From Mesostigma viride (Eukaryota; Streptophyta; Mesostigmatophyceae; Mesostigmatales; Mesostigmataceae): 64,000 nucleotides of DNA. The notes beneath the pieces are model-generated. The model was not told where the DNA came from. It saw only the letters and a list, made by a program, of their open reading frames with translations, and ran no database searches. The DNA is taken from NCBI GenBank assembly GCA_009746045.1, contig RPFO01001541.1, positions 37,281 to 101,280 of the forward strand. The letters run 5' to 3'. The position numbers and the translations under genes are program-made. Positions 12,383 to 50,039 of this stretch are shown here, in pieces (the first letter of the stretch is position 1; each line of letters begins with the position of its first letter).

Positions 12383-12396
12383 CAACGGCCGTTGGC
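12383..12396. repeat. CCAACGGCCGTTGG palindrome with outer TTTC/GAAA arms
   Basis: A single 14-bp perfect palindrome with TTTC about six bases to the left and GAAA about six bases to the right. It is one of the clearest examples of the extended form and lies just past the last recognised exon of the transposase-like gene. Confidence 0.85.
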
Positions 12397-12554
12397 TTTG
12401 AGAAATTAAGATATGCGACATGCGCCATGCAGCCAAGCTAAAGTATAGGCTGATTGCCCTGTATGTAACATTAGTAAGGTGAACGACCGTCGACAAAAAA
12501 ACACATGCGACATACAAACACCAATTTTACACAGTAATGTTTGGAATGACGTAC

Positions 12555-13222
12555 CGTAATTTCGGCGTCCACCTTCTTCGCAATTGTGAACCAGCCCTGT
12601 CGCGTGTTGTCCGGATGTCCTTCCCACTTGCCCTTCGTGACCTTTGCGACGCTCAGGTAGCACACGATTGCAGTTAAGGGTTCTCGGTCGTCTGGGTTCC
12701 AGAAGAAGCGTCGGGCGTCCGATCCGGAGGAGGAGCACCTCTCGAAGTATTTTACGTACATTACCCAGTTGCCTTTCTTAAAAACCTCGCCCCCCCCCCT
12801 GTATGTTTGTTTAAACACTCATCCTTGTCGAGTTGGTGGGCGACTCGAACAACTTTCGCCAACCAGTACGGGTGGTCGGGCACATGGTCCTTGTGCCCCC
12901 TCTCAGATGCGACTGCGACGGCCTCCCCCTCCTGCAAACCACGCCCCAACTCGTTTCTTGCCGTTTGAACGTGGTTCAGGCGGGTTCCCGGATATCGCGT
13001 GGGGTTCCGCGACTTACTCGCCTGGAGTTTTACAGTCCACGACGAGCTGCTCCAATCGTTTGGGCATGTCGTCCACTTGCCCTCTCGGCACTCCGCACAA
13101 CTGAAGCATGAAAAACGCCTGAGCTTTACCACCTCGACCCGCTCGCCCTTTTTGTCCAGTCGCCACTGGTGTGCCGTGGAGATATCTCGGATCGGGCCTC
13201 GCTCCTTACCGGACGTGAGAAT
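12555..13222 (-). CDS. Transposase-like gene, 3' exon (Cys cluster and chromo/BAH-like tail), frame broken at a C run
   Basis: This is the third recognised exon of the minus-strand gene, also represented by the entries at 13,525-14,280 and 15,076-16,242. The acceptor is ttgcag at 13,228-13,223 and the donor is attacg|gtacgt at 12,555. Joining to the previous exon keeps phase 0. The first half has a Cys-rich patch (RFSCFSCAEC followed by WTTC). It is followed by a segment suggestive of a chromatin-reader or Tudor-like fold (GEAVAVASER, YWLAKVVRV, GNWVMYVKYFE, RRFFWNP). The frame changes at ten C on the plus strand (12,790-12,799), where one extra G on the coding strand would restore continuity. 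A later exon may exist below 12,540 but I could not place it. The association with the DDE core is by splice phase and family resemblance recalled from uncharacterised metazoan proteins. Function is inferred. Confidence 0.5.
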
Positions 13223-13524
13223 CTGCAATTGTAAATCCATGAAACAACATCACAGCACATTTCCCAACTCCAACGGCCGTTGGCACTCAACAATTATAAG
13301 ATTTCCCAACTCCAACGGCCGTTGGCCCTTGGAAACTTTATATAAGTACATTTCTCAACTCCAACGGCCGTTGGCACTCAACAATTATACGATTTTCCAG
13401 CTCCAACGGCCGTTGGCCTTATGAAACTTCAAACTGCATCAAGGAAGCTGTCCTCTGTAAAGTGTAACCAGAGACAAATTATAGAACTGCACTTGACCAC
13501 CAGAAAGCAACTGTCTTTACTTAC
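13223..13524 (-). repeat. Intron carrying four palindromes
   Basis: The intron between exons 2 and 3 of the minus-strand gene runs from donor gtaagt at 13,524 to acceptor ttgcag at 13,223. It contains four CCAACGGCCGTTGG palindromes (near 13,269, 13,312, 13,362 and 13,402) spaced about 40-50 bp apart. Each is preceded by cc(a)aact or cagct and most are followed by a GAAA-like word. The spacing resembles an early tandem array. Confidence 0.75.
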
Positions 13525-14280
13525 GTTATCGAGAAGAAATGCCCGTCGAACCACGTCCGATTGTGCCGATGGTCGACTCGAGTCTTTGCCGGTTCTCCAA
13601 TCCCGGTTCAGGTAGGCCACCAGTGCCTCCACCGTATTCAGGTTCCGATTGTCCTCCTGCATCTGCGCTCTTTTGAGGATGCTTTTGACCGTCCCCCCCT
13701 CCCCGTCCGACTCCCCCTTCCCATGTCCTGCACACGAGTAGTTCCACTCCAATGATTCCAAGTCGGGGTCGGCCTCGAGCAGGTCCGCAGCCATCGCCAA
13801 CACATACCGGGATTGGAACTGCTCCTTACAGTTGTCGGACCAACTGATCCAGTTCCTCACCTCCACCCCCTCCTCCCTCAGCACGTTAAGGGTATTCTTC
13901 ATCACGAACTCCAGGGTCTGGGCATTCCTCGGTACGTCCTTCCCCATGTAATCGTGCTTCACCCTTTTGATTTCCAGCGATACGGGATCACGGTACATCA
14001 CGATCACCGGCATCAGGACGTAACTACTTGGGTACCAGTACTGCGCCTGCAACTGTTTCTGCAGGTGGTCCGAATAGTTCTCCGAGTAGTCCATCAGGAC
14101 CACCACCGTTCCCAGCGGCATCACGTCAATGCACTCCTTGTAAGCGTGGTGCTGCCAGGCCCATGTATGGACGTGAATGGCGAATTCCGGGAAGCGCGCC
14201 GTAATGAGTTCATGGAGCTCCGAGAGGGTTGACTTGATGAGTTTTTGCTGCAGGTTCATTTGCGGCGCCACATCCTCCTC
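13525..14280 (-). CDS. Transposase-like gene, central exon with DDE/RNase H-like core
   Basis: An exon of 252 codons with acceptor tgttgcag|gag at 14,281/14,280 and donor gataac|gtaagt at 13,525/13,524. It splices in phase 0 to both neighbours. Three acidic motifs appear in order: VLMDYSENYS (Asp about residue 64), WSDNCKEQF (Asp about 149) and GHGKGESDGEGG (Asp about 192, with flanking Glu). This order and spacing resemble an RNase H-fold DDE transposase family common as uncharacterised proteins in metazoans and protists (their VDFAENY, SDG..QFKN and HGKG..DG.GG motifs); I recall the pattern and have not searched it. The protein may be an active transposase, a domesticated derivative or a decaying copy. 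No terminal inverted repeats were identified. Confidence 0.55.
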
Positions 14281-15075
14281 CTGCAACACAACACACCCGC
14301 GCACCATGGATTGACCGAAGAATGGAAGTCAGCAGCTGGGAATTTCCCAACGCCAACGGCCGTTGGAAGTATGAAAGTCTACATATATATATTCAACGAT
14401 GCAAATATACATGCCCGCGCACCATGGATTGACCGAAGAATGGAAGTCAGCAGCTGGGAATTTCCCAACGCCAACGGCCGTTGGAAGTATGAAAGTCTAC
14501 ATATATATATTCAGAGGGGGGTGGCCGGCATCTGCTTATTGACGTTTCGGTGGCGCGGCCCTTGGCTCTTAGCCACGTGGCTGGGGCCTCCCTCACGGCA
14601 GGTTACACGGCGGACCGGGCGGAGCGGGCCAAGCTCCTGGCCTACGGCGACGTCGGGCACCATCGTGTGGTGCCCTTTGTCCTGGAGGAGTTTGGGGCCA
14701 TGGGGCCCCTGACCTCCGCCTTCTTCAAGGAGTGTTGCCGGCTCCGGGAGGACCGGCTGGACCTAGAGGGCCAGCGGGCCCCATGGTCGGCGCGGACCTG
14801 GACGTCATATTGGCGTCAGCGCTTGTCGGTGGCGCTGACTCGGGCCATGGCTGACATCATGCTCCGCCGTACGCGGGCTGATTTTGCGGTGCAGCAGGGC
14901 TATTAGGTTCCTCCCGTTAGGCGTTTCCATTGGTCTTATCGTAGTATAGAGCTTTGACATGGCTCTGTATATAGGTTTATAGCTGGGCGTTTGCTTTGGT
15001 TTGAGTGATTTCACTCTGCTGTAAGTAATTATATTTTTAATATATATATTCAACGATGCAAATATACATGCTTAC
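14281..15075 (-). other. Intron with 118-bp tandem duplication and a nested LINE insertion
   Basis: Intron between exons 1 and 2 of the minus-strand gene (donor acg|gtaagc at 15,076/15,075). It contains a 118-bp segment duplicated in tandem (14,296-14,413 and from 14,414). Each copy holds one palindrome. The second copy is split by a 5'-truncated LINE end at 14,514-15,039. Removing that insertion leaves an intron of about 255 bp. Confidence 0.75.
14514..15039 (+). mobile_element. 5'-truncated non-LTR retrotransposon 3' end (copy A)
   Basis: The sequence begins inside the endonuclease-like segment of a LINE ORF (GRHLLIDVSVARP), continues to a stop at 14,904-14,906, and has a 3' UTR ending in taattatatttttaa. 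It is flanked by a 13-bp target duplication, atatatatattca, at 14,501-14,513 and 15,040-15,052. A homologous, longer copy lies on the minus strand at 58,656-59,479. 5' truncation plus a target duplication is the signature of target-primed reverse transcription. It sits in an intron antisense to the host gene, so splicing need not be affected. Confidence 0.88.
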
Positions 15076-16242
15076 CGTCCCACGGGGCGCTGTGCCCTCC
15101 TTTATGAAGTCGAACCACGTGTACTTCTTTGTCCACCCCTTCATCTGGTCCGTCACGATGAACTCGGAAATCCCACACTCGTTGCACGTCCCTTCCAAGC
15201 AGTTCATTGGGACGTTAACGAACGGGCCGCCCGTCCTCCCCCCTCCTTGCCCCCCCTCCCCCCTCTCAGCCCTGTGGCAGGTGAAACGTCGAACGAAATC
15301 ATGGGCATTGTCAGGCACGGAAGGGATACCCTCCCTCTCCTCGATCTCCAGCGTGCTCTTCAACTCCTTGACGCCTTTGGCGAAGGCAGAGAGCAGAGAC
15401 TCGAAGACGACGTGCTTTTCGCATGCGCACAAGTCCCGGTCCTTCCACACGCCCTTTACGCACTTGGGCATGAACTCCACGAACTTCGTGTACCCCACCT
15501 TGTACCTTGTCCCGTCCGCAGTCGTCACGATACCTCCCTTGTACGGCGACGCGTCAGAACAGAACCGCTTGTAAATCGTTTCAAGCGAGTCCAAATAGTA
15601 CCTTCCGCCCTGGGAGGAAATGAGGATCCTGGCGTTTCCCTTCCTTTCGAACTCATTGACCACGTCCTTATGGTTGGGAGACGCCCTCGTGTTTAGGTCT
15701 GACAACCAGTAACTCCCGACGATGTCTTTGACCTCCTCCGGAAACTTGTCCGACCGTAAAGCACGAGGGGGCGCCTTCAGGGCGGGAAGGTCGCCCCCCA
15801 TCCTCATTCCCCTTGCGGTCTGGATATCCTTGGGCGTGACGTGAAGCAGCCGCGCGAGAGTGCAATGCCCTTGATTGTTCATGCCGTCCTTTCCCAAGCA
15901 CATTGACAGCACAGCGCACTTCGCGTTCCTGTGCTCATCCGACTTGCCCAATTCCTGGAAACCTTGCACGATATTAGCGACAACCTCCTGAGCGAAGGAC
16001 TCCGACGCCTTTCTTTTCAGCGCAGGGCGGTACTGTTTCCCCATAACCTTCACAACCGCACCTGGCAGCCGCTCAAGCGCCCTCAAGCCTACTGCAGTTT
16101 TCGTGTTTTCAGTCTTGTGATTGTTGTCCTTCAGCAAGTATTCCATTGCGCTGGCCATGTCGAGGGCAAGTTGGTTGCCCTTGATCTCGACGTACTTGAG
16201 ACTTAGGTCTTTGTTGTGCGCTTCACCTGCATCCGCGCGCAT
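15076..16242 (-). CDS. Transposase-like gene, 5' exon
   Basis: An open exon of about 389 codons ending at donor gggacg|gtaagc (15,076/15,075). The 5' limit is uncertain. An ATG opens the frame at 16,242, but gcggatgcag|gtgaag just inside looks like an acceptor, so upstream exons may exist beyond the 62-bp array. Visible features are a basic N-terminal half with KRKASESFAQEV, a CACEKH motif, and a Cys cluster CLEGTCNEC near the C-terminal end. A Cys cluster before the first catalytic Asp is also what I recall of the metazoan relatives. Exon 2 follows in phase 0. The protein would be a nuclear DNA-binding or transposase-like factor by inference only. Confidence 0.55.
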
Positions 16243-16312
16243 ACAGAATCCAGACGAAGTTTTGACTTTTTATCAAATTATTGCTTTCCAACAATTACCC
16301 AATTTGTAGGTC

Positions 16313-16868
16313 CCAACGGCCGTTGGACCCCTGAAAGTACGCCTGAAACACGCCAACACATGCATTTTCGACACCCAACGGCCGTTGGACCCCCGAAAGT
16401 GGGCCTGAAACACGCCAACACATGCATTTTCGACACCCAACGGCCGTTGGACCCCAGAAAGCGGGCCGAAAACACGCCAACACATGCATTTTCGACACCC
16501 AACGGCCGTTGGACCCCTGAAAGTGGGCCTGAAACACGCCAACACATGCATTTTCGACACCCAACGGCCGTTGGACCCCTGAAAGCGGGCCGAAAACACG
16601 CCAACACATGCATTTTCTACACCCAACGGCCGTTGGACCCCTGAAAGTGGGCCTGAAACACGCCCTTTACATGCATTTTCGACACCCAACGGCCGTTGGA
16701 CCCCTGAAAGCGGGCCGAAAACACGCCAACACATGCATTTTCGACGTCCAACGGCCGTTGGGCCCCTGAAAGCGGGCCGGAAACACGCTAACGCATGCAT
16801 TTTAGACACCCAACGGCCGTTGGACCCCTGAAAGCGGGCCGAAAACTCGCCAACACCTGCATTTTTTA
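16313..16868. repeat. 62-bp palindrome satellite array
   Basis: Nine tandem units of 62 bp (one 63 bp), each with CCAACGGCCGTTGG followed by a segment like acccctgaaagcgggcc and acgccaacacatgcattttcg. Cores start at about 16,313, 16,375, 16,437, 16,499, 16,561, 16,623, 16,686, 16,748 and 16,810. A degenerate core (TTAACGACCGTTGGAA) lies beyond the end near 16,915. The array lies upstream of, or in a 5' intron of, the transposase-like gene. ORFs here are repeat translations. Confidence 0.95.
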
Positions 16869-16869
16869 C

Positions 16870-18110
16870 ACGCCAGGATGTGAATTTCCGAATCCCAACG
16901 CACTTTTTATAACCTTAACGACCGTTGGAACCCAGAAATTCGACTGAAATGTTTCCATAACACACGTAACAACAAATTTGGTGGTCAACAACCCCGTAAA
17001 TCCGTAACCCTGCACGCACCTCTTGCCGCCATAGCTCTTGTTCGCAGCAGGTGGGCCCTGAAGACGCCTTTTGGTCTTGCACCTGTTGGTTACAATTGCA
17101 TGGCATACCAGCAATATATTGCACATAGCATTGTATTTCACACAATTATTATATTCATGCCACAAATAATAATAATAATTGTATTAAACAGAGGGGGGCA
17201 GGTTGCATATTCGTTTCATTGCAGTCTAATATCAACATATTAAAAATTTCCATGCCCATAAACATTTTTGATATAGCTATTAGGTTGCTAATTATATTAA
17301 ATCTTACCAGCCGTGTAGTGGTTTGCGGATTGCTTTATAGGCTTGCCACACCAACCCAAAAAAAAATGTTACGACGGGAGTTGAACCCGGGCCTACTAGA
17401 CGTGTTCACGAGGTACTACGAGGATCAGCCAAGAATCTGTCCCGTACCGGTGTGGTTCACCAGTTCCGCACACTAGCATGGTCTCCGCGTCGCGCTCGTT
17501 CATTAAATTTCGGAGAAATTTTGCCTGCTTATATACGTTTTTGAAGCCCCTCGGCGTCGCGCCGTGAAAAGCTTCCTCCGCCAGGCGTCCAATCAGGTAG
17601 CAGGAATGTGAAAAAATGGGCTCGAGCTGTGTGCAGCGCCGCGTCCATGTGGCGCCACACGGCGTCAGGAGTCGGCGTGGCGCCATATATGGCGCTGCGA
17701 ATTCCCTACCGTGTGGTCTGCAGCGCCACGTCACAGTTGCGACTGCAAGTATTTTTCAGCGCGGCGCCGTCCCGGCGCCGCGCCATATCGTTTGGCGCGT
17801 AAATTTTTTTACCGCGCGCGGCGTCTTTTAGGCGCCGCGCCATTCCATTTGCGCGTCGGCATACCAGCACCAGGGAATTTGAATTGCAGGTGCTGCGTTG
17901 GCGCTTTCCAGCCCTCCTGGAAGACCGACACCGTGGATGCACCTTGCACCCGAGCATCAACGGCGGGTATTCGCGACATCGGCCGAAAGTGACAACGATA
18001 TTAGCAACCCGACAGCCATATTCGACTGAGCAAAGCGATTGTCGACACAGAGTGAAGAAAGAGGTGAGCAATGGCTGATGTACATGGATGCTTTTGACAG
18101 ATAGTGGTTT
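16870..18110. other. No clear gene; possible small minus-strand exon, a tRNA-like box and GGCGCC-rich stretch
   Basis: Minus-strand gtaaccaacag|gtgcaagacc (about 17,093) and gcaagag|gtgcgt (about 17,028) could bound a short exon of the transposase-like gene; this is unproven. 17,374-17,394 contains a tRNA B-box-like word. 17,620-17,860 is rich in GGCGCC/GCGCC palindromic words of unknown meaning. No open frame is convincing. Confidence 0.3.
17366..17470 (-). other. tRNA-like or SINE-like Pol III promoter fragment
   Basis: On the minus strand TTGGCTGATCC (A-box-like) is followed after about 35 bases by GGGTTCAACTCCC (B-box-like), then CGTAACA and a run of nine T that could terminate Pol III. 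A cloverleaf with a proper acceptor stem could not be drawn, so this is not called a tRNA gene. A related arrangement is present in the fold-back at 29,470-29,665. Confidence 0.35.
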
Positions 18111-19675
18111 TATGCATGCCAGCACCCCCATTCTTGGTTAATAACAGTGTCCACAAGCAGCTCGTTGACGGGCTAGAAGAATCAGAAATTGTAGCTGTGA
18201 TTCTGAACGTCGCGTTTGCTTTAATTGTGTAGCCCGTCAACTGATTCGCTTGCTTATGGTGTATGCCCTGCATTGTGCCTTTAATTGTGTGCAGCATCCT
18301 TGCGTGCGCCCCTGTAAAAACCAAGGAAAAAGAAAAAAAGGTACGAATGGCAGCCCCACTCGTGCATTTGTTGGAATCAATGCATTATTGAAGCAGGCTG
18401 TCGTGCATGTTTTCTTTTCTGGGTTCCCTTATAGCTGCGTTGCTGGGTTGCTGGGTTTTCTTGCCATGGCAGCGCCGTATGATCGTTTTTTCCGGCCTGC
18501 AATGTAGTCGACATCTTTCCCCCGGCTGCCATTCTTGGTTAATAATGTTGATATTTATGCATGCCAGCACCCCCATTCTTGGTTAATAACGTCAACGTCC
18601 TTGCTGCTTCCTTTGGTGCTTTATCTGCCTTGGTGTCGTGCCTCCATTTGGTGGCCGGTGGTCACGGGATGCACAAACGGGAACGCTATCAGTTTTCGTC
18701 CACCCGCCGCCGCTGCCCCCAGGCCGGCCCCTGTAAAAACCAAGGAAAAAGAAAAAAAGGTACGAATGGCAGCCCCGCTTATTCATTTGTTGGAATCAAT
18801 GCATTATTGAAGCAGGCTGTCGTGCATGTTTTCTTTTCTGGGTTCCCTTATAGCTGCGTTGCTGGGTTGCTGGGTTTTCTTGCCATGGCAGCGCCGTATG
18901 ATCGTTTTTCTCCGGCTTGCAAATTGCAATGTATGGAGATTCGATTTTCATCTATTCCCCACGTGTACGGCTTGCCAATTCTTGGTTAATAATGTTGATA
19001 TTTATGCATGCCAGCACCCCCATTCTTGGTTAATAACGTCAACGTCCTTGCTGCTTCCTTTGGTGCTTTATCTGCCTTGGTGTCGTGCCTCCATTTGGTG
19101 GCCGGTGGTCACGGGATGCACAAACGGGAACGCTATCAGTTTTCGTCCACCCGCCGCCGCTGCCCCCAGGCCGGCCCCCTGTAAAAACCAAGGAAAAAGA
19201 AAAAAAGGTACGAATGGCAGCCCCGCTTATTCATTTGTTGGAATCAATGCATTATTGAAGCAGGCTGTCGTGCATGTTTTCTTTTCTGGGTTCCCTTATA
19301 GCTGCGTTGCTGGGTTGCTGGGTTTTCTTGCCATGGCAGCGCCGTATGATCGTTTTTTCCGGCCTGCAATGTAGTCGACATCTTTCCCCCGGCTGCCATT
19401 CTTGGTTAATAATGTTGATATTTATGCATGCCAGCACCCCCATTCTTGGTTAATAACGTCAACGTCCTTGCTGCTTCCTTTGGTGCTTGATCTGCCTTGG
19501 TGTCGTGCCTCCATTTGGTGGCCGGTGGTCACGGGATGCACAAACGGGAACGCTATCAGTTTTCGTCCACCCGCCGCCGCTGCCCCCAGGCCGGCCCCCT
19601 GTAAAAACCAAGGAAAAAGAAAAAAAGGTACGAATGGCAGCCCCACTTATTCATTTATTGGAATCAATGCATTAT

Positions 19676-20075
19676 TGGCATGGATGGGTGTAGTGGGGTG
19701 CTTGCATGCCTGGATGGGTGTCATGGGGTGCTGGCATGCATGGATGGGTGTCATGGGGTGCTGGCATGCATGGATGGGTGTCATGGGGTGCTGGCATGCA
19801 TGGATGGGTGTAGTGGGGTGCTGGCATGCATGGATGGGTGTCATGGGGTGCTGGCATGCATGGATGGGTGTCATGGGGTGCTGGCATGCGTGGATGGGTG
19901 TAGTGGGGTGCTGGCATGCATGGATGGGTGAAGTGGGGTGCTGGCATGCGTGGATGGGTGTAGTGGGGTGCTGGCATGCATGGATGGGTGAAGTGGGGTG
20001 CTGGCATGCGTGGATGGGTGTAGTGGGGTGCTGGCATGCGTGGATGGGTGTCATGGGGTGCTGGCATGCATGGAT
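19676..20075 (+). repeat. 30-bp minisatellite, first block
   Basis: About 13 units of tggatgggtgtcatggggtg followed by ctggcatgca. Variation is mostly at tcat/tagt/aagt and gca/gcg. It is embedded between two copies of the longer repeat unit. Confidence 0.95.
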
Positions 20076-20304
20076 GGTTAATAACGTCAACGTCCTTGCT
20101 GCTTCCTTTGGTGCTTGATCTGCCTTGGTGTCGTGCCTCCGTTTGGTGGCCGGTGGTCACGGGATGCACAAACGGGAACGCTATCAGTTTTCGTCCACCC
20201 GCCGCCGCTGCCCCCAGGCCGGCCCCCTGTAAAAACCAAGGAAAAAGAAAAAAAGGTACGAATGGCAGCCCCACTTATTCATTTGTTGGAATCAATGCAT
20301 TATT

Positions 20305-21185
20305 GGCATGGATGGGTGTAGTGGGGTGCTTGCATGCCTGGATGGGTGTCATGGGGTGCTGGCATGCATGGATGGGTGTCATGGGGTGCTGGCATGCGTG
20401 GATGGGTGTCATGGGGTGCTGGCATGCATGGATGGGTGTAGTGGGCTGCTGGCATGCATGGATGGGTGAAGTGGGGTGCTGGCATGCGTGGATGGGTGTC
20501 ATGGGGTGCTGGCATGCATGGATGGGTGTCATGGGGTGCTGGCATGCGTGGATGGGTGTCATGGGGTGCTGGCATGCATGGATGGGTGTCATGGGGTGCT
20601 GGCATGCATGGGTGGGTGTAGTGGGGTGCTGGCAAGCGTGGATGGGTGTAGTGGGGTGCTGGCAAGCATGGATGGGTGTCATGGGGTGCTGGCATGCATG
20701 GATGGGTGTCATGGGGTGCTGGCATGCATGGATGGGTGTCATGGGGTGCTGGCATGCATGGATGGGTGTCATGGGGTGCTGGCATGCATGGATGGGTGTA
20801 GTGGGGTGCTGGCATGCATGGATGGGTGTAATGGGGCGCTGGCATGCATGGATGGGTGTCATGGGGCGCTGGCATGCATGGATGGGTGTAGTGGGGTGCT
20901 GGCATGCGTGGATGGGTGTCATGGGGTGCTGGCATGCATGGATGGGTGTGATGGGGTGCTGGCATGCATGGGTGGGTGTAGTGGGGTGCTGGCAAGCGTG
21001 GATGGGTGTCATGGGGTGCTGGCATGCATGGATGGGTGTGATGGGGTGCTGGCATGCATGGATGGGTGTGATGGGGTGCTGGCATGCATGGATGGGTGAA
21101 GTGGGGTGCTGGCATGCGTGGATGGGTGTAGTGGGGTGCTGGCATGCGTGGATGGGTGTCATGGGGTGCTGGCATGCATGGATGG
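20305..21185 (+). repeat. 30-bp minisatellite, second block
   Basis: About 29 units of the same 30-bp repeat with the same variants, again bounded on both sides by the longer unit. Together with the first block it implies that the longer unit was duplicated with the minisatellite inside, followed by independent expansion. Confidence 0.95.
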
Positions 21186-21373
21186 TTAATAACGTCAACG
21201 TCCTTGCTGCTTCCTTTGGTGCTTGATCTGCCTTGGTGTCGTGCCTCCGTTTGGTGGCCGGTGGTCACGGGATGCACAAACGGGAACGCTATCAGTTTTC
21301 GTCCCCCGCCGCCGCTGCCCCAGGCCGGCCCCCTGTTTCCAAGAAAAAAAGAAAAAAAGGTACGAATGGCAGC

Positions 21374-36229: not shown

Positions 36230-36241
36230 GTGTTTTTGGTC

Positions 36242-37625: not shown

Positions 37626-37637
37626 GCAATTGCGCAG

Positions 37638-39085: not shown

Positions 39086-39229
39086 CGTGCGTGTTTGCAA
39101 GTTGGCCGTTGACACTCTACGACGGAGCCAATTTTCGGAAGAACCTGCCTCATTTATGAATGCATCGACTGTGTGCATAAATTGTGATCATTGAATTGAA
39201 CAAAAAAATTCTCTTATTGCCCCAATCAT

Positions 39230-39590
39230 GGCTATTCTCTTAATGCCCTATCATGGCTATTTGTTTGTGTATGTTTTGCCCATGTTATTACATTAATGGC
39301 ATGATGTTGTGGATTGCTCTATCTATGATGGTTGTTCGTTTGTGTATGCTTTGCCCATGTTGTTACAGTAATGGCATGATGTTGTGGATTGCTAGCTCAA
39401 TCTATGATGGTTGTTCGTTTGTGTATGCTTTGCCCATGTTGTTACAGTAATGGCATAATGTTGTGGATTGCTAGCTCAATCTATGATGGTTGTTCGTTTG
39501 TGTATGCTTTGCCCATGTTGTTACAGTAATGGCATGATTTTCTGGATTGCTCAACCTATGAGGGTTGTTCGTTTGTGTATGTTTTGCGCG
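39230..39590 (+). repeat. About 80-bp tandem repeat
   Basis: Four to five units containing ttgtttgtgtatgctttgcc, catgttgttacagtaatggc and atgttgtggattgct. The last copy diverges before cgcgcag|atcac. Confidence 0.9.
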
Positions 39591-39600
39591 CAGATCACAA

Positions 39601-39806
39601 TGGATTGCACCATCTGCCGCAACAAGCGAAGCCCCCTTACTGGTTCCAAGATCTTATCCTACTCGATGCCAAGCAGGCTGGCGAAGGGTATCCCAGTACG
39701 TACTTTGAAACTTGATGCCGCAAAACAACTACAACTTCGTTTTAACCCTTTAGCCGTTTTGAGTGATATTTACAGCGGACATTACATTTTTGTTGCTACG
39801 GGATGA
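39601..39806 (+). CDS. Possible short exon/ORF with CxxC, 68 aa
   Basis: ATG at 39,601 is preceded by gcgcagatcaca. The product begins MDCTICRNK and has a basic middle and hydrophobic end. The preceding GCAG resembles the start context of the gene series. No homology recognised; the upstream in-frame part is repeat-derived. Could be a spurious ORF. Confidence 0.3.
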
Positions 39807-39809
39807 GAA

Positions 39810-40260
39810 TTGAGCTTTGTAATGCTAGCAGGTGTCACCAACCAAACTGTCCGCTATTTGTAGTGGGCATTTATTGTTAGAGCTTGCAGCTGGGTCCCTG
39901 CTCCTCCACATGCAACCTTGGTGTTCATGAGCCCTTTACTAGCTTCCTTTCTGTCAGGGGGTGCTATATTTGGCACCCATAGGACATTGCAATATGACCA
40001 ATGACATGACCCCCAAGGTGGTGAATATATGTGTGTGCTTGTGTCCTATAATGGACCATAACTAACTATTAGGTTGGTTTGTGGACATTATCATGGAAAG
40101 TGACCATTGCCCGGTTTTTATAGCGGGCAGTTGGACACGGTTTTAAGGGTTGACCTATTAGCTTTGTCAGGTGTGTGTGCTGCACCGCACCGCTTGCTAA
40201 CATATTCGGCGGATTTCTTCTTTGTCGTCTGCGTGTCACAGCGTGCTTGTACGCACAACC
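39810..40260. other. No feature recognised
   Basis: Ordinary mixed-composition DNA between the small ORF and the proline-rich exon. Possible acceptors for that exon are ctttgtcag (about 40,170) and gtgtcacag (about 40,240). Confidence 0.4.
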
Positions 40261-40541
40261 ACCCGCGTTCCCCTCCGCCGGCGCCCCCGCCGCCGGGCTC
40301 TCCGCCGCCACCGGTGTTGCCCCCTCCCGCCGCCGGCCCTTCCGCGCCGTCGGAAGCTGCAGCGGCAGCACAGCAAATGCCCCCTCCCCCCGCACCATCG
40401 TCGGGGCAAGAGGCGCGCGGCGCTCATGCAGCAAAGGCGGCGAAGGAGCGGAGGAAATCGGCGGCTTCTGGGTCATCGGGTTCCGATGCCGCGACGGCAG
40501 CAACTGGAAAAGCAACCCACCAGACACTGCCAGCTGCCCGG
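40241..40541 (+). CDS. Large multi-exon gene, proline-rich exon (first recognised)
   Basis: The frame reads [17 protein letters not shown], then an Ala/Pro-rich part and [20 protein letters not shown], ending TLPAAR at donor cccgg|gtaggt (40,541/40,542). The phase is 0, matching the acceptor at 45,857/45,858 exactly. There is no in-frame ATG at the 5' side, so this is an internal exon or the start lies upstream; the left border given here is an acceptor-like cacag. Low-complexity Pro/Ala/Ser composition suggests a disordered N-terminal region. The exon call rests on the splice phase and codon-like composition. Confidence 0.5.
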
Positions 40542-40577
40542 GTAGGTGTTACGCACAAAGATGTGATTTTCTTGCGC

Positions 40578-43500
40578 CATCCTTGTCCTTGTCCTTGTCC
40601 TTGTCCTTGTCCTTGTCCTTGTCCTTGTCCTTGTCCTTGTCCTTGTCCTTGTCCTTGTCCTTGTCCTTGTCCTTGTCCTTGTCCTTGTCCTTGTCCTTGT
40701 CCAGCCTTGTCCTTGTCCTTGTCCTTGTCCTTGTGCCAGCCTTGTCCTTGTCCTTGTCCTTGTCCTTGTCCTTGTCCTTGTCCTTGTCCTTGTCCTTGTC
40801 CTTGTCCTTGTCCTTGTCCTTGTCCTTGTCCTTGTCCTTGTCCTTGTCCTTGTCCTTGTCCTTGTCCTTGTCCTTGTCCTTGTCCTTGTCCTTGTCCTTG
40901 TCCTTGTCCTTGTCCTTGTCCTTGTCCTTGTCCTTGTCCTTGTCCTTGTCCTTGTCCTTGTCCTTGTCCTTGTCCTTGTCCTTGTCCTTGTCCTTGTCCT
41001 TGTCCTTGTCCTTGTCCTTGTCCTTGTCCTTGTCCTTGTCCTTGTCCTTGTCCTTGTCCTTGTCCTTGTCCTTGTCCTTGTCCTTGTCCTTGTCCTTGTC
41101 CTTGTCCTTGTCCTTGTCCTTGTCCTTGTCCTTGTCCTTGTCCTTGTCCTTGTCCTTGTCCTTGTCCTTGTCCTTGTCCTTGTCCTTGTCCTTGTCCTTG
41201 TCCTTGTCCTTGTCCTTGTCCTTGTCCTTGTCCTTGTCCTTGTCCTTGTCCTTGTCCTTGTCCTTGTCCTTGTCCTTGTCCTTGTCCTTGTCCTTGTCCT
41301 TGTCCTTGTCCTTGTCCTTGTCCTTGTCCTTGTCCTTGTCCTTGTCCTTGTCCTTGTCCTTGTCCTTGTCCTTGTCCTTGTCCTTGTCCTTGTCCTTGTC
41401 CTTGTCCTTGTCCTTGTCCTTGTCCTTGTCCTTGTCCTTGTCCTTGTCCTTGTCCTTGTCCTTGTCCTTGTCCTTGTCCTTGTCCTTGTCCTTGTCCTTG
41501 TCCTTGTCCTTGTCCTTGTCCTTGTCCTTGTCCTTGTCCTTGTCCTTGTCCTTGTCCTTGTCCTTGTCCTTGTCCTTGTCCTTGTCCTTGTCCTTGTCCT
41601 TGTCCTTGTCCTTGTCCTTGTCCTTGTCCTTGTCCTTGTCCTTGTCCTTGTCCTTGTCCTTGTCCTTGTCCTTGTCCTTGTCCTTGTCCTTGTCCTTGTC
41701 CTTGTCCTTGTCCTTGTCCTTGTCCTTGTCCTTGTCCTTGTCCTTGTCCTTGTCCTTGTCCTTGTCCTTGTCCTTGTCCTTGTCCTTGTCCTTGTCCTTG
41801 TCCTTGTCCTTGTCCTTGTCCTTGTCCTTGTCCTTGTCCTTGTCCTTGTCCTTGTCCTTGTCCTTGTCCTTGTCCTTGTCCTTGTCCTTGTCCTTGTCCT
41901 TGTCCTTGTCCTTGTCCTTGTCCTTGTCCTTGTCCTTGTCCTTGTCCTTGTCCTTGTCCTTGTCCTTGTCCTTGTCCTTGTCCTTGTCCTTGTCCTTGTC
42001 CTTGTCCTTGTCCTTGTCCTTGTCCTTGTCCTTGTCCTTGTCCTTGTCCTTGTCCTTGTCCTTGTCCTTGTCCTTGTCCTTGTCCTTGTCCTTGTCCTTG
42101 TCCTTGTCCTTGTCCTTGTCCTTGTCCTTGTCCTTGTCCTTGTCCTTGTCCTTGTCCTTGTCCTTGTCCTTGTCCTTGTCCTTGTCCTTGTCCTTGTCCT
42201 TGTCCTTGTCCTTGTCCTTGTCCTTGTCCTTGTCCTTGTCCTTGTCCTTGTCCTTGTCCTTGTCCTTGTCCTTGTCCTTGTCCTTGTCCTTGTCCTTGTC
42301 CTTGTCCTTGTCCTTGTCCTTGTCCTTGTCCTTGTCCTTGTCCTTGTCCTTGTCCTTGTCCTTGTCCTTGTCCTTGTCCTTGTCCTTGTCCTTGTCCTTG
42401 TCCTTGTCCTTGTCCTTGTCCTTGTCCTTGTCCTTGTCCTTGTCCTTGTCCTTGTCCTTGTCCTTGTCCTTGTCCTTGTCCTTGTCCTTGTCCTTGTCCT
42501 TGTCCTTGTCCTTGTCCTTGTCCTTGTCCTTGTCCTTGTCCTTGTCCTTGTCCTTGTCCTTGTCCTTGTCCTTGTCCTTGTCCTTGTCCTTGTCCTTGTC
42601 CTTGTCCTTGTCCTTGTCCTTGTCCTTGTCCTTGTCCTTGTCCTTGTCCTTGTCCTTGTCCTTGTCCTTGTCCTTGTCCTTGTCCTTGTCCTTGTCCTTG
42701 TCCTTGTCCTTGTCCTTGTCCTTGTCCTTGTCCTTGTCCTTGTCCTTGTCCTTGTCCTTGTCCTTGTCCTTGTCCTTGTCCTTGTCCTTGTCCTTGTCCT
42801 TGTCCTTGTCCTTGTCCTTGTCCTTGTCCTTGTCCTTGTCCTTGTCCTTGTCCTTGTCCTTGTCCTTGTCCTTGTCCTTGTCCTTGTCCTTGTCCTTGTC
42901 CTTGTCCTTGTCCTTGTCCTTGTCCTTGTCCTTGTCCTTGTCCTTGTCCTTGTCCTTGTCCTTGTCCTTGTCCTTGTCCTTGTCCTTGTCCTTGTCCTTG
43001 TCCTTGTCCTTGTCCTTGTCCTTGTCCTTGTCCTTGTCCTTGTCCTTGTCCTTGTCCTTGTCCTTGTCCTTGTCCTTGTCCTTGTCCTTGTCCTTGTCCT
43101 TGTCCTTGTCCTTGTCCTTGTCCTTGTCCTTGTCCTTGTCCTTGTCCTTGTCCTTGTCCTTGTCCTTGTCCTTGTCCTTGTCCTTGTCCTTGTCCTTGTC
43201 CTTGTCCTTGTCCTTGTCCTTGTCCTTGTCCTTGTCCTTGTCCTTGTCCTTGTCCTTGTCCTTGTCCTTGTCCTTGTCCTTGTCCTTGTCCTTGTCCTTG
43301 TCCTTGTCCTTGTCCTTGTCCTTGTCCTTGTCCTTGTCCTTGTCCTTGTCCTTGTCCTTGTCCTTGTCCTTGTCCTTGTCCTTGTCCTTGTCCTTGTCCT
43401 TGTCCTTGTCCTTGTCCTTGTCCTTGTCCTTGTCCTTGTCCTTGTCCTTGTCCTTGTCCTTGTCCTTGTCCTTGTCCTTGTCCTTGTCCTTGTCCTTGTC

Positions 43501-45056
43501 CTTGTCCTTGTCCTTGTCCTTGTCCTTGTCCTTGTCCTTGTCCTTGTCCTTGTCCTTGTCCTTGTCCTTGTCCTTGTCCTTGTCCTTGTCCTTGTCCTTG
43601 TCCTTGTCCTTGTCCTTGTCCTTGTCCTTGTCCTTGTCCTTGTCCTTGTCCTTGTCCTTGTCCTTGTCCTTGTCCTTGTCCTTGTCCTTGTCCTTGTCCT
43701 TGTCCTTGTCCTTGTCCTTGTCCTTGTCCTTGTCCTTGTCCTTGTCCTTGTCCTTGTCCTTGTCCTTGTCCTTGTCCTTGTCCTTGTCCTTGTCCTTGTC
43801 CTTGTCCTTGTCCTTGTCCTTGTCCTTGTCCTTGTCCTTGTCCTTGTCCTTGTCCTTGTCCTTGTCCTTGTCCTTGTCCTTGTCCTTGTCCTTGTCCTTG
43901 TCCTTGTCCTTGTCCTTGTCCTTGTCCTTGTCCTTGTCCTTGTCCTTGTCCTTGTCCTTGTCCTTGTCCTTGTCCTTGTCCTTGTCCTTGTCCTTGTCCT
44001 TGTCCTTGTCCTTGTCCTTGTCCTTGTCCTTGTCCTTGTCCTTGTCCTTGTCCTTGTCCTTGTCCTTGTCCTTGTCCTTGTCCTTGTCCTTGTCCTTGTC
44101 CTTGTCCTTGTCCTTGTCCTTGTCCTTGTCCTTGTCCTTGTCCTTGTCCTTGTCCTTGTCCTTGTCCTTGTCCTTGTCCTTGTCCTTGTCCTTGTCCTTG
44201 TCCTTGTCCTTGTCCTTGTCCTTGTCCTTGTCCTTGTCCTTGTCCTTGTCCTTGTCCTTGTCCTTGTCCTTGTCCTTGTCCTTGTCCTTGTCCTTGTCCT
44301 TGTCCTTGTCCTTGTCCTTGTCCTTGTCCTTGTCCTTGTCCTTGTCCTTGTCCTTGTCCTTGTCCTTGTCCTTGTCCTTGTCCTTGTCCTTGTCCTTGTC
44401 CTTGTCCTTGTCCTTGTCCTTGTCCTTGTCCTTGTCCTTGTCCTTGTCCTTGTCCTTGTCCTTGTCCTTGTCCTTGTCCTTGTCCTTGTCCTTGTCCTTG
44501 TCCTTGTCCTTGTCCTTGTCCTTGTCCTTGTCCTTGTCCTTGTCCTTGTCCTTGTCCTTGTCCTTGTCCTTGTCCTTGTCCTTGTCCTTGTCCTTGTCCT
44601 TGTCCTTGTCCTTGTCCTTGTCCTTGTCCTTGTCCTTGTCCTTGTCCTTGTCCTTGTCCTTGTCCTTGTCCTTGTCCTTGTCCTTGTCCTTGTCCTTGTC
44701 CTTGTCCTTGTCCTTGTCCTTGTCCTTGTCCTTGTCCTTGTCCTTGTCCTTGTCCTTGTCCTTGTCCTTGTCCTTGTCCTTGTCCTTGTCCTTGTCCTTG
44801 TCCTTGTCCTTGTCCTTGTCCTTGTCCTTGTCCTTGTCCTTGTCCTTGTCCTTGTCCTTGTCCTTGTCCTTGTCCTTGTCCTTGTCCTTGTCCTTGTCCT
44901 TGTCCTTGTCCTTGTCCTTGTCCTTGTCCTTGTCCTTGTCCTTGTCCTTGTCCTTGTCCTTGTCCTTGTCCTTGTCCTTGTCCTTGTCCTTGTCCTTGTC
45001 CTTGTCCTTGTCCTTGTCCTTGTCCTTGTCCTTGTCCTTGTCCTTGTCCTTGTCCT
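40578..45056 (+). repeat. 4.5-kb (CCTTGT)n hexanucleotide tract inside an intron
   Basis: About 745 copies of CCTTGT with two small interruptions (ccag near 40,700 and 40,736). It lies within the intron 40,542-45,857. The left flank is gtgattttcttgcgcc and the right flank gattttcttgcgccaacggc, so the tract is inserted precisely at the border of a palindrome repeat unit. All reading frames are open on both strands (Pro-Cys, Leu-Ser, Leu-Val; Gly-Gln and others), which explains ORFs over 1,600 codons. Length in the assembly should be treated as approximate. Confidence 0.97.
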
Positions 45057-45061
45057 TTTCT

Positions 45062-45805
45062 TGCTTGATTTTCTTGCGCCAACGGCCGTTGCAATTTGGA
45101 AATTAGGGTGTTATTTTTTTTTTGCCCAACGGCCGTCGGAACCTTGAAATTAGGGTGTGATTTTCATGCGCCAACGGCCGTTGGAACCCGTAAATTAGGG
45201 TGTGATTTTCATGCGCCAACGGCCGTCGGAACCTTAAAATTAGGGTGTGATTTTCATGCGCCAACGGCCGTTGGAACCTGGAAATTAGGGTGTTATTTTT
45301 CTGTCGCCAACGGCCGTTGGAACCTGGAAATGAAGGTGTCATTTTTCTCGCGCCAACGGCCGTTGGAAACTGGAAATTAGGGTGTGATTTTCATGCGCCA
45401 ACGGCCGTTGGAACCTGGAAAATAGGGTGTGATTTTTCTCGCGCCAACGGCCGTTGGAACCTGGAAAATAGGGTGTCATTTTTCTCGCGCCAACGGCCGT
45501 TGGAACCTGGAAATTAGGGTGTGATTTTTCTGCGCCAACGGCCGTTGGAACCTGGAAATTAGGGTGTGATTTTCATGCGCCAACGGCCGTTGGAACCTGT
45601 AAATTAGGGTGTGATTTTCATGCGCCAACGGCCGTTGGAACCTGGAAATTAGGGTGTTGGCCAACGGCCGTTGGAACCTGGAAATTAGGGTGTGATTTTC
45701 ATGCGCCAACGGCCGTTGGAACCTGGAAATTAGGGTGTGATTTTCATGCGCCAACGGCCGTTGAAACCTGGAAATTAGGGTGTTATTTTTCCGGCGACGG
45801 CCGTT
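45062..45805. repeat. 46-bp palindrome satellite array (intron 1)
   Basis: About 17 units of 45-46 bp: gattttcttgcg or gattttcatgcg, then CCAACGGCCGTTGG, then aacctggaaattagggtgt. A few cores are mutated (GTCGG, TTGCA). The outer TTTTC and GAAA words give each unit an extended inverted repeat. It occupies the 3' end of the intron before the 45,858 exon. Thr-Ala-Val-Gly ORFs are repeat translations. Confidence 0.97.
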
Positions 45806-45857
45806 GGAACATAGTACTGACCTTCCGGCTATCTGTATGTTTTTTGCATGTGATCAG

Positions 45858-47012
45858 GGGCGTCCGTCCAGGCCGAGAACGGAGGAAGAGCGGGAGAAGT
45901 GGGCTTACAAGATTGAACATAACTGTGCGGTGGCGCATCTCACAACATTTTTTGAGGACTGGCGCCAACGAGCACCGGGCACCGACTTATGGTCGGTTAT
46001 TGTGAAGACCTTTGAGAGGAAGGGGCTGCTGACGACACGTGCTGGAAATGCGAAGCCCAGCATTTTGGACTCCTGGGAGCCAGCGCCGTCCTCTCAAGTG
46101 CACGACAAGAATCTAACTGACACCATACAGGCGGCGTTTCATCTGCGGCAGAAGATACGCCTAGTTCCAGACGATGTCGACATCGTGGGGGGGTCCGCGA
46201 TTGCGACTCAAGTACGGGCCCCCACGGAGAACTTGTGCCAACTCCCGGAACTCATGCGGCACCGGACGGTGACGGTGCGGAATTGTAGGGGGCTCGCGCC
46301 GTGGTTCGTGGGGGCCGGCACAAGTCTGACAAAAGCAAAATGTGCCGTGCCGATCTTCCGGTTTGCGTGGCAGGTGCTGGCAGACCGTGATCCAGGTCTC
46401 TACAATTTATGGGTGCAGAGGAGTGAAAAGGTTCCTTACCACATTAAAATACTGACGGGGGACGACAGTGACCGTGCCGTGCAGAGGTTCGGATACTATC
46501 GTTCGCCAACGGCCGAGGAAGCCATGTCCATTCTCCGGACGGACTCCCTGAAGGACATGGCGGCCGCTTGCTCAGACGAGTTGATCACCATGGAGTTGGA
46601 TCCGTCCGAGTGGTCAAATGAATCTGAGCGTGAGGCAGTAGTTGACCTGACGAAATCCGCGCTGGGGAGCTTGAACATCTCGGACCATGCCGGCCTTAAG
46701 GGTAAATTTCGAGACCAGACGCCTTGCGTGTTTGTGCAGTTTGCCGTGCTGGACGGCAACCACTACACACAGATGTTGAAGTCCGTGATTTTCGAGGGCT
46801 CTGACGAGCAAGTGAGTACTGCGATAGCTGGCGAGATTGCGGGTAAACAAAAGGGCAAGTTCGTGGAGACAACCGACGAGGCGTTTGATTTGTGGAGGGG
46901 GTTGGTGAGGGACGCGGAGAAGTTCAAGTACACCAATCTGGACGTGCTCAAGGGCTGGGAGGTGGAGGGGGAAGCACTGATCCCGCCCATGAAGGACATG
47001 CGGACGCAAAAG
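45858..47012 (+). CDS. Large multi-exon gene, main exon (385 codons)
   Basis: Acceptor gtgatcag|ggg at 45,857/45,858; donor caaaag|gtaaat at 47,012/47,013. Both junctions are phase 0. The product begins GRPSRPRTEEEREKWAYK and includes HLTTFFEDWRQRAPGTDLW, FRFAWQVLADRDPGLYNLW and CVFVQFAVLDGNHYTQML. No domain is recognised. It is globular-looking, with mixed composition and no transmembrane segment. The partial palindrome gccaacggccgagg at 46,505-46,518 is in the coding sequence (SPTAEEAM). If introns are ignored the frame would stop at 47,054. The gene may encode a large DNA-interacting or unknown lineage protein. Confidence 0.65.
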
Positions 47013-47059
47013 GTAAATATAACGGATCGGGTGTGGGAACGTTTTAGGCACTAGATGTT

Positions 47060-47535
47060 ATTTTTCTTGCGCCAACGGCCGTTGGAACCTGGAAATTAGG
47101 GTGTGATTTTTCTTGCGCCAACGGCCGTTGGAACCTGGAAATTAGTGTGTGATTTTTCTTGCGCCAACGGCCGTTGGAACCTGGAAATTAGGGTGTCATT
47201 TTTCCTGCGCCAACGGCCGTTGGAACCTGGAAATTTGGTTGATATTTTTCTTGCGCCAACGGCCGTTGGAACCTGGAAATTCGGTCGACATTTTTCTTGC
47301 GCCAACGGCCGTTGGAGCCTGGAAATTAGGGTGTGATTTTTCTTGCGCCAACGGCCGTTGGAACCTGGAAATTAGGGTGTGATTTTTCTTGCGCCAACGG
47401 CCGTTGGAACCTGGAAATTAGGGTGTGATTTTTCTTGCGCCAACGGCCGTTGGAACCTGGAAATTAGGGTGTGATTTTTCTTGCGCCAACGGCCGTTGGA
47501 AACTGGAAATTAGGGTGTGATTTTTGTTCGGGAAC
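47060..47535. repeat. 46-bp palindrome satellite array (intron 2)
   Basis: Ten units of 46 bp: tttttcttgcg, CCAACGGCCGTTGG, aacctggaaattagggtgtga. It fills most of intron 2 (47,013-47,629). Cores are at 47,072, 47,118 and every 46 bp after. It ends at a degenerate unit (gggaacggccgatc). Confidence 0.97.
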
Positions 47536-47629
47536 GGCCGATCTTCCAAAGTGTAAGGACAAAATGTCATGTCGTGTGTTGTATGACCGTTTTTTGTCTC
47601 AAACACTGATTCACATTTCATGCATGCAG

Positions 47630-50039
47630 GGGAGAGAGGCGCATCGGAGGGTTGCCCTGATCGGAGGGGGGCTGAATGCAGAAGACGAGGCCGTTTCCAA
47701 AAAGTCGAGGGGGACGGCGCTGCTGGAAGTGCACAACTATTTCAAGACGCACATGGAGGAATCCTGGGATAAGCCGGAGGTGCCCCTTCAGGACCAGAAA
47801 GAAATATGGAATTTGATTCATGGGGTTTCAAGCAGCACTGAGAAGGCAAGGAAGGACGGGGAGGGGGAGGAGGGTGGTGAGGAGCGGGTTGGAGGGCGAT
47901 TGAACGAGGGTGGTTTGTCCGAATCGGAGAAAACCCAAGTCTACGACTTCATCTCGGCTGTGAAGGATGAAACGGTCGCTCCGAACGACGACAGTAGATG
48001 TGGAATGCCGATTGAGGACAAGGTGGCCAAGGAGCTTGCAGAGTTTCTGGACATCGTGGCAGCGGACAAGCTGGACGGGGAGGGAAGGGTGATGAGGAAG
48101 GGGGGGGGATCAAACAGGAAGGGTGGAGGAGTCTAGCCCGCTTTCGATTCTGGCCGTCTATCATGGCAACCGTGAAGGCCAAACACGTTCCTCCTCAGTG
48201 CTTGTATGACCTGACATACATGGCCAAGATCTTCTGCGAGGTGATTGTCCAGCTTTTCCTGATCTACAACCGCGATTTGGGGAAATACCCCGAACCACGC
48301 CACCTCGGCTGGTTGCCGATGCAGCCTTCGGAAGCCGACAGCGCCCTTGAGAGGGTGGCCGATACGGTCGCTGTAGCTGCCAAGAGACTAAGGGCGGTTA
48401 TCAGGCCAACGGGGAGGGACGATTCCACCTTCCCACTTGCACTGCTGGAGAGGACGAATTTTTGGACGACCCACAAGGAGGAAACGAAATGGTGGGTCCT
48501 GATTGCGCCCGAACCCCCAACCGAACAGGCTGTGGTGCCCCAACCCGTACAGCCTGTGGCGGGGGCTGTGGCGGTGACGGGGGCTGTGCCGGAGGAAGGC
48601 CAAGCCGAACATGCGGAGGCAGAGGACGTCCAGTCGGGTCGCCAAAAAAAGGTGGGGGAGAAGCGGGAACCCCCGCGGAAGTTTGGGTCGGAGGAGCTGG
48701 CATCCGAAATCGAGCAGCAGGGCCCGTGGATTTCTAAGAAAGTTTACGGGTCTGACGGGGACACGACCTGTGAGTTCATGATGAAGACTTTCGCGTGGGA
48801 GAAAAGCGATGGGCCGACACGGTTGGCTCAAGTGGTACTTAATGCAATGGAGGGGTTCGAATTTGTTGTGAAGAGGAAGGGGGGGTGAACCAGCCGGATA
48901 TCAAGAATGGGATATGGCTGCTGAATTTGGAACACCACGCGAAGCTGTGGAATGATGAGGAATTGTTGAAGGGTCGAACGGGTGCGTGGGTGGAGAAAAG
49001 GGACTGGAAGGCGGCGAAGGATTGTGGAGATTTCAATGGTGTGAAGGACGCCTGGTCGTCGTACCTAGGCGATTTTACGGGATTCTTCAACCCACCCGTG
49101 ATCTTCATTGGGTCAAAGGAGCAGGTGGATGGGTTTAAGGTCCTTCTGAAGGTACTTGGGAAGCGGCCTGAGGGGGAGGATATTTCCAATCCCAACGGCC
49201 GTTCGGGCAAGGAAATTGCGGGTGCAGCCCAGAAGCGTCCGCTGGAGACGGCAGGCGCTGGCACCAAAAAGAAACGCCGGAAGCGCGCCGCCTCGGAGAC
49301 CCCCTCGGCCGAAGACGTCTCAATGGGGGATGATGAGGATGTCGGGTCACATGGGGGTGATGATGGGGAGGAGGTTGGTGATGATGGTGCCGGCGATGAT
49401 GAGGGGGGCGGGAATGAGGGTGGTGATAAGGGGGGCGGGTCGGACGGAGAGGGGGGGGTTCGAAGGGCGGAGAGGGGGGCGGGTCGAAGGGCGGAGAGGG
49501 GGGGGGTCGAAGGACGGAGAGGGGGGCGGGTCGAAGGGCGGAGAGGGGGGGGGTCGAAGGGCGGAGAGGGGGGCGGGTCGAAGGACGGAGAGGGGGCGGG
49601 TCGAAGGGCGGAGAGGGGAGGGGGTCGAAGGACGGAGAGGGGGGCGGAGAGAAGGGCGGAGAGGGGAGGGGGTCGAAGGGCGGAGAGGGGGGCGGGTCGA
49701 AGGGCGGAGAGGGGGGCGGGTCAAAGGGTGGAGAGGGGGGCGGGTCAAAGGGCGGAGAGGGGGGCGGGTCCAAGGGCGGAGAGGGGGGGGAGAGAAGGGT
49801 GGAGAGGGGGGCGGGTCAACCGGCGCATCGGGGGAAGGGGGGAAGGGCGGAGAGGGGGGCGGGTCGACCGGCGCATCGGGGGAAGGGGGGAAGGAGGGGG
49901 GGGAGGGGAGGGAGGCTCGAAGGGGAATTCGGGGGCGTCGGGGGGGGGATGTTGGGGCGTGCCGTCGACTACTGCAAAAAGCTCCTTTCGCCTGGCGGGC
50001 ACGTTCGATCAAGAGCAACGGCTAGTCATCTGTCAAAGG
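47630..50039 (+). CDS. Large multi-exon gene, long exon in several frames
   Basis: Acceptor catgcag|ggg (47,629/47,630, phase 0); donor caaagg|gtaagt (50,039/50,040). Open frames follow one another: to 48,136; 48,163-48,888, open back to the preceding G run; and 48,889 onward. The last changes again in the G-rich minisatellite to the frame ending HLSKG. Changes occur at nine G (48,100-48,108), seven G (48,879-48,885) and in 49,440-49,915, all of the sign expected if one G is missing. Visible segments include CLYDLTYMAKIFCEVIVQLF, an Ala/Val/Pro/Glu linker, and a basic KKKRRKRAASE followed by an Asp/Gly-rich acidic stretch. Function unknown. It may be one continuous exon with miscounted G runs, or a degenerating gene. 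Confidence 0.5.
49440..49915 (+). repeat. G-rich minisatellite inside an exon
   Basis: About 18-20 imperfect units like gaagggcggagaggggggcg with ggtc spacers (20-27 bp). It codes for Arg/Gly/Glu-rich repeats in one frame. Runs of 5-8 G vary among units, so frame cannot be tracked reliably through it. Strong G-quadruplex potential. Confidence 0.9.

Follow-up and report, generated by a model that had tools for sequence, protein, structure and literature searches.

Few groups of eukaryotes are known to harbour giant transposons that carry many genes, and few of these elements reach well over a hundred copies whose ends can be read. Several families of DNA transposon are marked by their target duplications: piggyBac elements duplicate TTAA, Mutator-like elements (MULE) about 9 bp, Polinton/Maverick elements, which carry a protein-primed PolB, 6 bp, CACTA (En/Spm) elements, which have CACTA ends, 3 bp, and Sola and Academ DNA transposons 4 bp or 3-4 bp. 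The Starships, giant transposons of fungi, measure tens to hundreds of kb and hold accessory cargo genes, with a tyrosine-recombinase captain at one end. Repeated short motifs are also familiar in mobile or large DNA: En/Spm contains many transposase-linked TNPA-binding motifs, and the homologous region (hr) repeats of baculoviruses and the family of repeats of Epstein-Barr virus (EBV) are tandem dyad sites. According to PMC6431247, Teratorn, a giant piggyBac-herpesvirus fusion of fish, is 41-182 kb long with 18-bp terminal inverted repeats (TIRs) and about 90 other genes, and CACTA elements of 16-20 kb occur in a red alga. Here we describe a 64-kb stretch of Mesostigma viride DNA (the window; contig RPFO01001541.1, here C1566, positions 37281-101280), most of which belongs to a giant DNA transposon that carries many copies of the 14-bp palindrome CCAACGGCCGTTGG.

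The element is a giant TIR DNA transposon with well over a hundred copies in the genome scanned (440 Mb, 2,243 contigs), and the palindrome lies inside it at fixed places. We think it probable that the palindrome, as the core of a longer dyad, is a dispersed protein-binding operator of this cut-and-paste-type transposon.

Results

The palindrome and its dyad

The window holds 58 exact copies of CCAACGGCCGTTGG, with the first base at 12382 and the last at 47499, while 100 shuffles of the window gave a mean of 0.00 and a maximum of 0. Fourteen other copies have one mismatch and one has two. The 72 copies with at most one mismatch all lie within 12382-49205, and no copy with up to two mismatches was found in 1-12381, 16824-25955, 36787-45078 or 49206-64000. 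An earlier note on this DNA had reported some 70 copies between 12.4 and 49 kb, clustered far above chance in an unusual gene region and missing from named stretches, and had taken them for neither CRISPR nor a plain microsatellite. Our counts agree on all of this, and the span it gave (12383..49206) holds except at its limits, since the true start is 12382 and the last one-mismatch copy ends at 49205.

The majority of the copies belong to arrays, with unit lengths of 42, 118, 62, 209, 45 and 46 bp near 13.3, 14.3, 16.3, 30.1, 45.1 and 47.1 kb, respectively. Such an arrangement would suit a functionless by-product, in which local tandem repeats chanced to contain the palindrome, and unequal exchange and the transposon multiplied it; the by-product explanation also draws on array lengths that differ between element copies by whole units, and on a genome-wide number that is accounted for by copying of the element (see below). 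We nevertheless consider it unlikely, because 28-29 unrelated contexts share both the core and the spaced AAA/TTT, and because changes in the core are fewer than changes in the flanks.

The shared bases make the palindrome the core of a 34-bp dyad, TTT-N7-CCAACGGCCGTTGG-N7-AAA. Among 28 non-redundant contexts from the window, A occupies positions +8, +9 and +10 in 24, 27 and 28, and T occupies -10, -9 and -8 in 21, 20 and 19. With the left-part loci added (29 non-redundant contexts at a 65% cut), AAA stands exactly at +8..+10 in 26, TTT at -10..-8 in 20, and both in 18; other offsets of the two triplets score 0-11, the larger values being overlapping neighbours. In five arrays the core diverges by 0, 2.9, 2.5, 0 and 1.8%, against 9.7, 10.6, 16.5, 5.0 and 13.8% in the adjacent flanks, which bears out the earlier remark that a perfect core stands between varying flanks. 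When the window is compared with another copy of the element, on contig C1, four aligned pieces contain 295 substitutions in 18,007 positions but 1 in 554 core positions, where 9.1 are expected (P 0.001); over the 2,313 bp of a fifth piece the two do not differ.

The palindromes mostly occupy introns and intergenic stretches of the element. By a hand-drawn gene list, only 3 of the 72 lie in bodies of open reading frames (ORFs), two of these in the intron/small-exon zone of the candidate transposase gene, and of 28 non-redundant palindromes 2 fall in gene bodies (P 1.7e-6). Sites near gene ends and in introns could also be expected of an RNA or DNA hairpin that folds in transcripts as a terminator, polyadenylation or splicing signal, in the manner of the hairpins at transcript ends of some giant viruses, and a transcript-derived protein does include the translation of the palindrome (PTAVG). 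We hold the hairpin to be improbable: its flanks lack covariation (145 left/right pairs within the same copy in 28 contexts, against 145.4 ± 7.4 in 2,000 re-dealings of the right flanks), the 14-bp palindrome alone gives a short stem, and the A/T tracts keep a fixed distance with no pairing constraint beyond the consensus. The null result in the flanks speaks for a dyad read by protein over a hairpin, and folding of the core itself stays compatible with it. The dyad architecture and the tandem arrangement of dyads at several sites of a long mobile DNA also recall the arrays that serve replication, segregation or synapsis in plasmids and large DNA viruses (baculovirus hr, the EBV family of repeats, plasmid iterons). 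This alternative, too, we rate as having little chance of being right, given that many single copies sit in introns and between genes and that no replication or partition gene was recognised, although no genome search for such families returned an answer.

Ends, copies and size of the element

The ends of the element are sharp and carry imperfect TIRs of about 20 bp (GGGRRGGCCCACA..). The left end GGGAAGGCCCACACTAAATC pairs with the right end GGG(A/G)GGGCCCACAATCAATC at 16-17 of 20 positions as counted by eye; the best local alignment of both ends was another pair, of 27 bp, further in, so that the TIR has to be called short and imperfect. At the right, all three copies compared (window, C1 and C1413) diverge into unrelated flanks at window base 51486. 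At the left, two copies share the start base (C1:2099112 and C1413:3000186), and the flanks of the first three copies and of twenty further ones, in which the end sequence is exact, are unrelated in 23 of 23 cases, with a highest pairwise identity of 0.45. Genome-wide we found 176 left and 187 right ends, and none with the reversed control patterns. The copy in the window runs from C1566:975, a left end found by pattern and in loci L074 and L085, to 88766, the right end at window 51486.

Insertion duplicated 4 bp of the target in 11 of the 13 end pairs compared. If a terminal C run of either 6 or 7 is allowed, the duplications are identical on the two sides in ten of the ten copies read with both ends on one contig (TCCT, ACGT, AATC, AGTG, TGGG, GGGT, AATA, CCTG, TGCC and TCAT), and that of the C1413 copy is GGAT. 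Ends paired in the same orientation within 160 kb form 21 pairs with spans of 27.6-151.8 kb (median 66.8 kb). For this estimate 40 left ends were chosen by hand among the 100 listed (of 176) and 47 right ends among the 100 listed (of 187), and the spans include N gaps and nested insertions. Of twenty 1-kb probes along C1413, two read N and three fall where the window has its satellite at 40-45 kb; the others are collinear with window 12.8-51.2 kb. The near-identity of the copies suggests a recent spread.

Nineteen of the 40 picked left ends have no right partner within 160 kb in the picked list. Several small contigs start less than 1 kb from a left end. Solitary ends, such as that at C1:3403059, suggest deletion derivatives or assembly breaks. 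We also considered C1566 as an allele of C1:2.16-5.09 Mb, a stretch that spans N gaps, with 98-100% identity in most pieces and only 89-94% in some array and neighbouring pieces; the flanks differ on both sides, and the two are thus separate insertions. In C1, the right end of the element is also the start of a MULE transposase gene (PF10551, 1.5e-16; L019:5726-8825 = C1:5095726-5098825), and the giant element appears to have inserted there into another transposon. In C1135 (L050:3480-3860) the element turns back as an inverted copy around a stretch that is also found at window 61764-61944 and is itself nearly palindromic.

The palindrome across the genome

The whole-genome search that the earlier note had proposed returned 9,685 exact copies of the 14-mer and 0 of the reversed pattern. 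This is about 55 per left end (9,685/176), against the 58 exact copies in the window. All 50 places listed of the 9,685, which are all on C1, lie at most 98.9 kb inward of a left end or at most 15.4 kb inward of a right end; none of these 50 is in the first 2.099 Mb of C1 or near the solitary right end at C1:3403059, and part of the C1 stretch between them reads N. For the remaining genome, the counts argue for the same confinement to the element. Copying of the whole element explains the genome-wide number of palindromes. The earlier note had offered selection or constant renewal; constant renewal is unneeded for this number, while the conserved core among the element's own unrelated palindromes still calls for constraint.

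Outside this genome, viral_contigs yielded 0 stretches with two palindromes 10-40 bp apart and one single match for the left-flank pattern, and 84,980 species genomes of prokaryotes yielded palindrome-N7-AAA in 25 stretches with one match each, about the number that we estimate for chance. In the literature, with subscription papers and preprints outside the scope, the core 12-mer occurs in 3 papers, with titles on noroviruses and cytomegalovirus, and no published description of the element was met.

In four other copies of the element, the sequence found in the window recurs in 28 of 29 palindromes, identical one-mismatch variants included, and the 29th is a swapped unit type of the 209-bp array. 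Ten gaps of at least 10 bp separate the window from C1, and the three that hold palindromes are all whole array units. Nothing in these observations points to the palindrome jumping alone. A very small mobile palindrome was among the options in the earlier note. As a tiny mobile element that invaded the transposon, it might account for the many unrelated contexts, but no single palindrome is present in one and absent from another of the element copies compared, and the flanks share spaced bases that insertion would not need; we give it hardly any credence.

Genes and satellites inside the element

The features of the window are collected in Table 1.

Table 1. Features of the 64-kb window (window coordinates).
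Feature	Position	Strand	Basis and remarks
Part of one giant transposon copy	1..51486	+	right end common to C1 and C1413; three unrelated flanks
Palindrome group	12382..16823	no strand	16 exact: 1 single, groups 13270-13416 and 14353-14484, 62-bp-unit array 16313-16823
Candidate transposase gene	13431..16225	-	exons ~16225-15075 and 14280-13431; open frames and transcript-derived protein P0001
Optional 63-nt exon of candidate transposase gene	copies 14316-14378 and 14434-14496		contains palindrome (translation PTAVG)
Palindrome group	25956..31949	no strand	12 exact, 6 with one mismatch; located around the MYND and F-box-like genes and within array 30056-32048 (209-bp units)
MYND zinc finger gene	26885..27661	+	PF01753, 32.7 bits, cut-off 22.7
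F-box-like gene	28063..28967	+	PF00646, E 0.0026, 18.1 bits, below cut-off 20.5
Palindrome group	33272..36786	no strand	8 exact and 3 one-mismatch, between small ORFs
Small ORFs 34528-35145, 35447-36229, 36335-36645, 36840-37313	34528..37313	+	one direction, palindromes between
Palindrome group	45079..47499	no strand	two arrays with units of 45-46 bp; 22 exact copies, 4 with one mismatch
Two candidate exons, 45858-47012 and 47630-48136	45858..48136	+	flank palindrome array; no Pfam match
Final one-mismatch palindrome CCAACGGCCGTTCG	49192..49205	no strand	within an ORF
Right terminal inverted repeat	51467..51486	-	reverse complement GGGGGGGCCCACAATCAATC vs left end GGGAAGGCCCACACTAAATC, 16/20; 17/20 in C1413 copy
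Flanking host DNA outside the element	51487..64000	no strand	sequence departs from two other copies at 51487

The candidate transposase gene has no Pfam match up to E 10, and its role is a guess guided by its place, its exons and residues that we take to be DDE-like. A EukProt protein filed under Prorocentrum lima (P0001) matches it in 99 of 99 residues and joins both exons through the 21 residues TFILPTAVGVGKFPAADFHSS, which the window encodes in a 63-nt stretch present twice. Through this transcript-derived protein, expression of an element gene is shown only indirectly. The species name would mean either a relationship between the window's host and the sample or a mixture of organisms in it; the host might also be a companion in that culture. 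The genome is small for a dinoflagellate. A homologue search with a piece of the candidate transposase gave 1 match among 641 candidates.

The F-box-like protein has at least 128 matches in the genome, the first 78 listed being 99-100% identical over the full 312 residues, and none among 2,250 homologue candidates at E 0.01. When 119 of these 128 matches were compared with the 100 listed of 176 left ends, 45 F-box copies shared a contig with such an end. For 36 of the 45 a correctly oriented left end lies upstream at no more than 150 kb, and in no case is a misplaced left end the sole one. Three of the four small ORFs have no Pfam match, in a scan without 36335-36645. The palindrome array 47056-47540 lies within a candidate intron, 47013-47629 (GT..AG, frame kept), drawn from GT/AG sites and open frames only. 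The ORFs at window 32172, 33354, 34528, 35447, 36840 and 37640 start directly behind a splice-acceptor-like CAG or no more than a few bases from it, a pattern that might reflect trans-splicing or 5' introns.

Long satellites fill window 1-10272, 19678-25105, 25105-25871 and 40580-45057, with units of 40, 30/29, 8 and 6 bp. Those of 1-10 kb and 19.7-25.9 kb recur in other element copies and are therefore part of the element, and the 4.5-kb TCCTTG array is replaced in C1413. The claim that the palindrome follows lineage-specific genes and not transposons or other satellites can thus be kept only in part: it does sit with those genes, but they ride as cargo in a giant transposon whose ends are mapped, and several of the satellites belong to this element as well. 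A tyrosine recombinase (PF00589, 1e-6), lying between the satellites and the MYND gene in the C1 copy (L015:176-1021), could belong to a nested element. Two of the ORFs in the flank at 51487..64000, which we assume to be LINE-like, have no Pfam match at E 0.01, and a third has only DUF3090 at 0.094.

Discussion

A regulatory or architectural role, one of the options in the earlier note, remains the best functional reading of the palindrome, with the function itself proposed from the pattern of sites. The dyad recurs some 50-60 times in the element, in introns and between genes. A dimeric DNA-binding protein, probably encoded by the element, would contact it at the core and at the A/T tracts, which lie about 1.5 helical turns away from its centre. 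Once bound, this protein would control the cargo genes from promoter, intron or silencer sites, or would tie the long element together. Selection for binding would then keep unrelated sites within one element identical in sequence, and the local arrays would grow by unequal exchange.

Several points weigh against this account. The binding protein and its gene are themselves postulated, so that the site is a putative one, and the dyad is not fully symmetric, AAA being stronger than TTT. Detection of the array copies by their core, with up to 3 mismatches allowed, somewhat inflates the conservation of the core, the test of core changes between the window and C1 includes array copies of uncertain alignment, and the placement of the palindrome rests on 50 places listed of 9,685. 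With regard to the transposon, the copy in the window has no target duplication (left ..GCATT, right TAAT..), and neither has the end pair in C1, which spans N gaps; the C1566 and C1 contigs may have been joined from different copies at long satellites.

A bolder proposal, which we put forward tentatively and regard as rather doubtful, is that a microbial eukaryote harbours here a hitherto undescribed superfamily of giant cut-and-paste transposons, equipped with a genome-wide operator of its own. An element-coded dimeric protein would read about 55 dyads in each copy, thousands altogether, and would either govern the cargo of all copies as a single regulon or hold the copies together in the nucleus. 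This one genome shows the ends and target duplications of a giant element together with its cargo and a repeated dyad, so that its mobility and its control both become testable. Should the dyad be an operator, it would be a rare case of the regulatory wiring of the cargo travelling with a transposon and being multiplied thousands of times across a host genome.

Comparison with known systems

The MYND and F-box-like genes and the palindromes of giant viruses had led us to consider the insertion of a giant virus, an idea set aside, but not dismissed, once the ends of the element were known. No giant-virus hallmark genes were seen among the proteins scanned, no search having been aimed at capsid or other hallmarks, and no herpesvirus genes among the few element proteins scanned. 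As described in PMC6431247, Teratorn resembles the element in being giant mobile DNA with short TIRs and many genes. Teratorn uses TTAA, whereas the 4-bp duplications listed above are of mixed sequence and none of them is the TTAA of piggyBac and Teratorn. Their length also departs from that of Mutator-like elements, the MULE gene seen in C1 being flank that the element interrupted, and from that of Polinton/Maverick; from CACTA they differ in length as well, and the ends of the element read GGGRRGGCCC. For Sola and Academ the length fits, but our element is far larger and similarity to their transposases was not found in Pfam. Size and cargo bring it close to the Starships, while the inverted repeats and 4-bp duplications point to a cut-and-paste-type element (no search for a captain was made).

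A parallel to the dyad inside a DNA transposon is En/Spm, where a short motif is likewise repeated many times; there the element-coded reader is known, whereas here it is proposed, and the motif is spread over the whole element and not only near the ends. The baculovirus hr and EBV repeats, unrelated in sequence to the palindrome as far as we know, likewise place dyad sites, both tandem and dispersed, within a large DNA element, but our dyads also lie in introns and between cargo genes. Since the duplications fit none of the piggyBac, Mutator, Polinton and CACTA rules, and Sola/Academ in length only, the element, matched to none of the families tested, is called a variant of the giant TIR transposons, of a known kind but with an unusual dispersed dyad.

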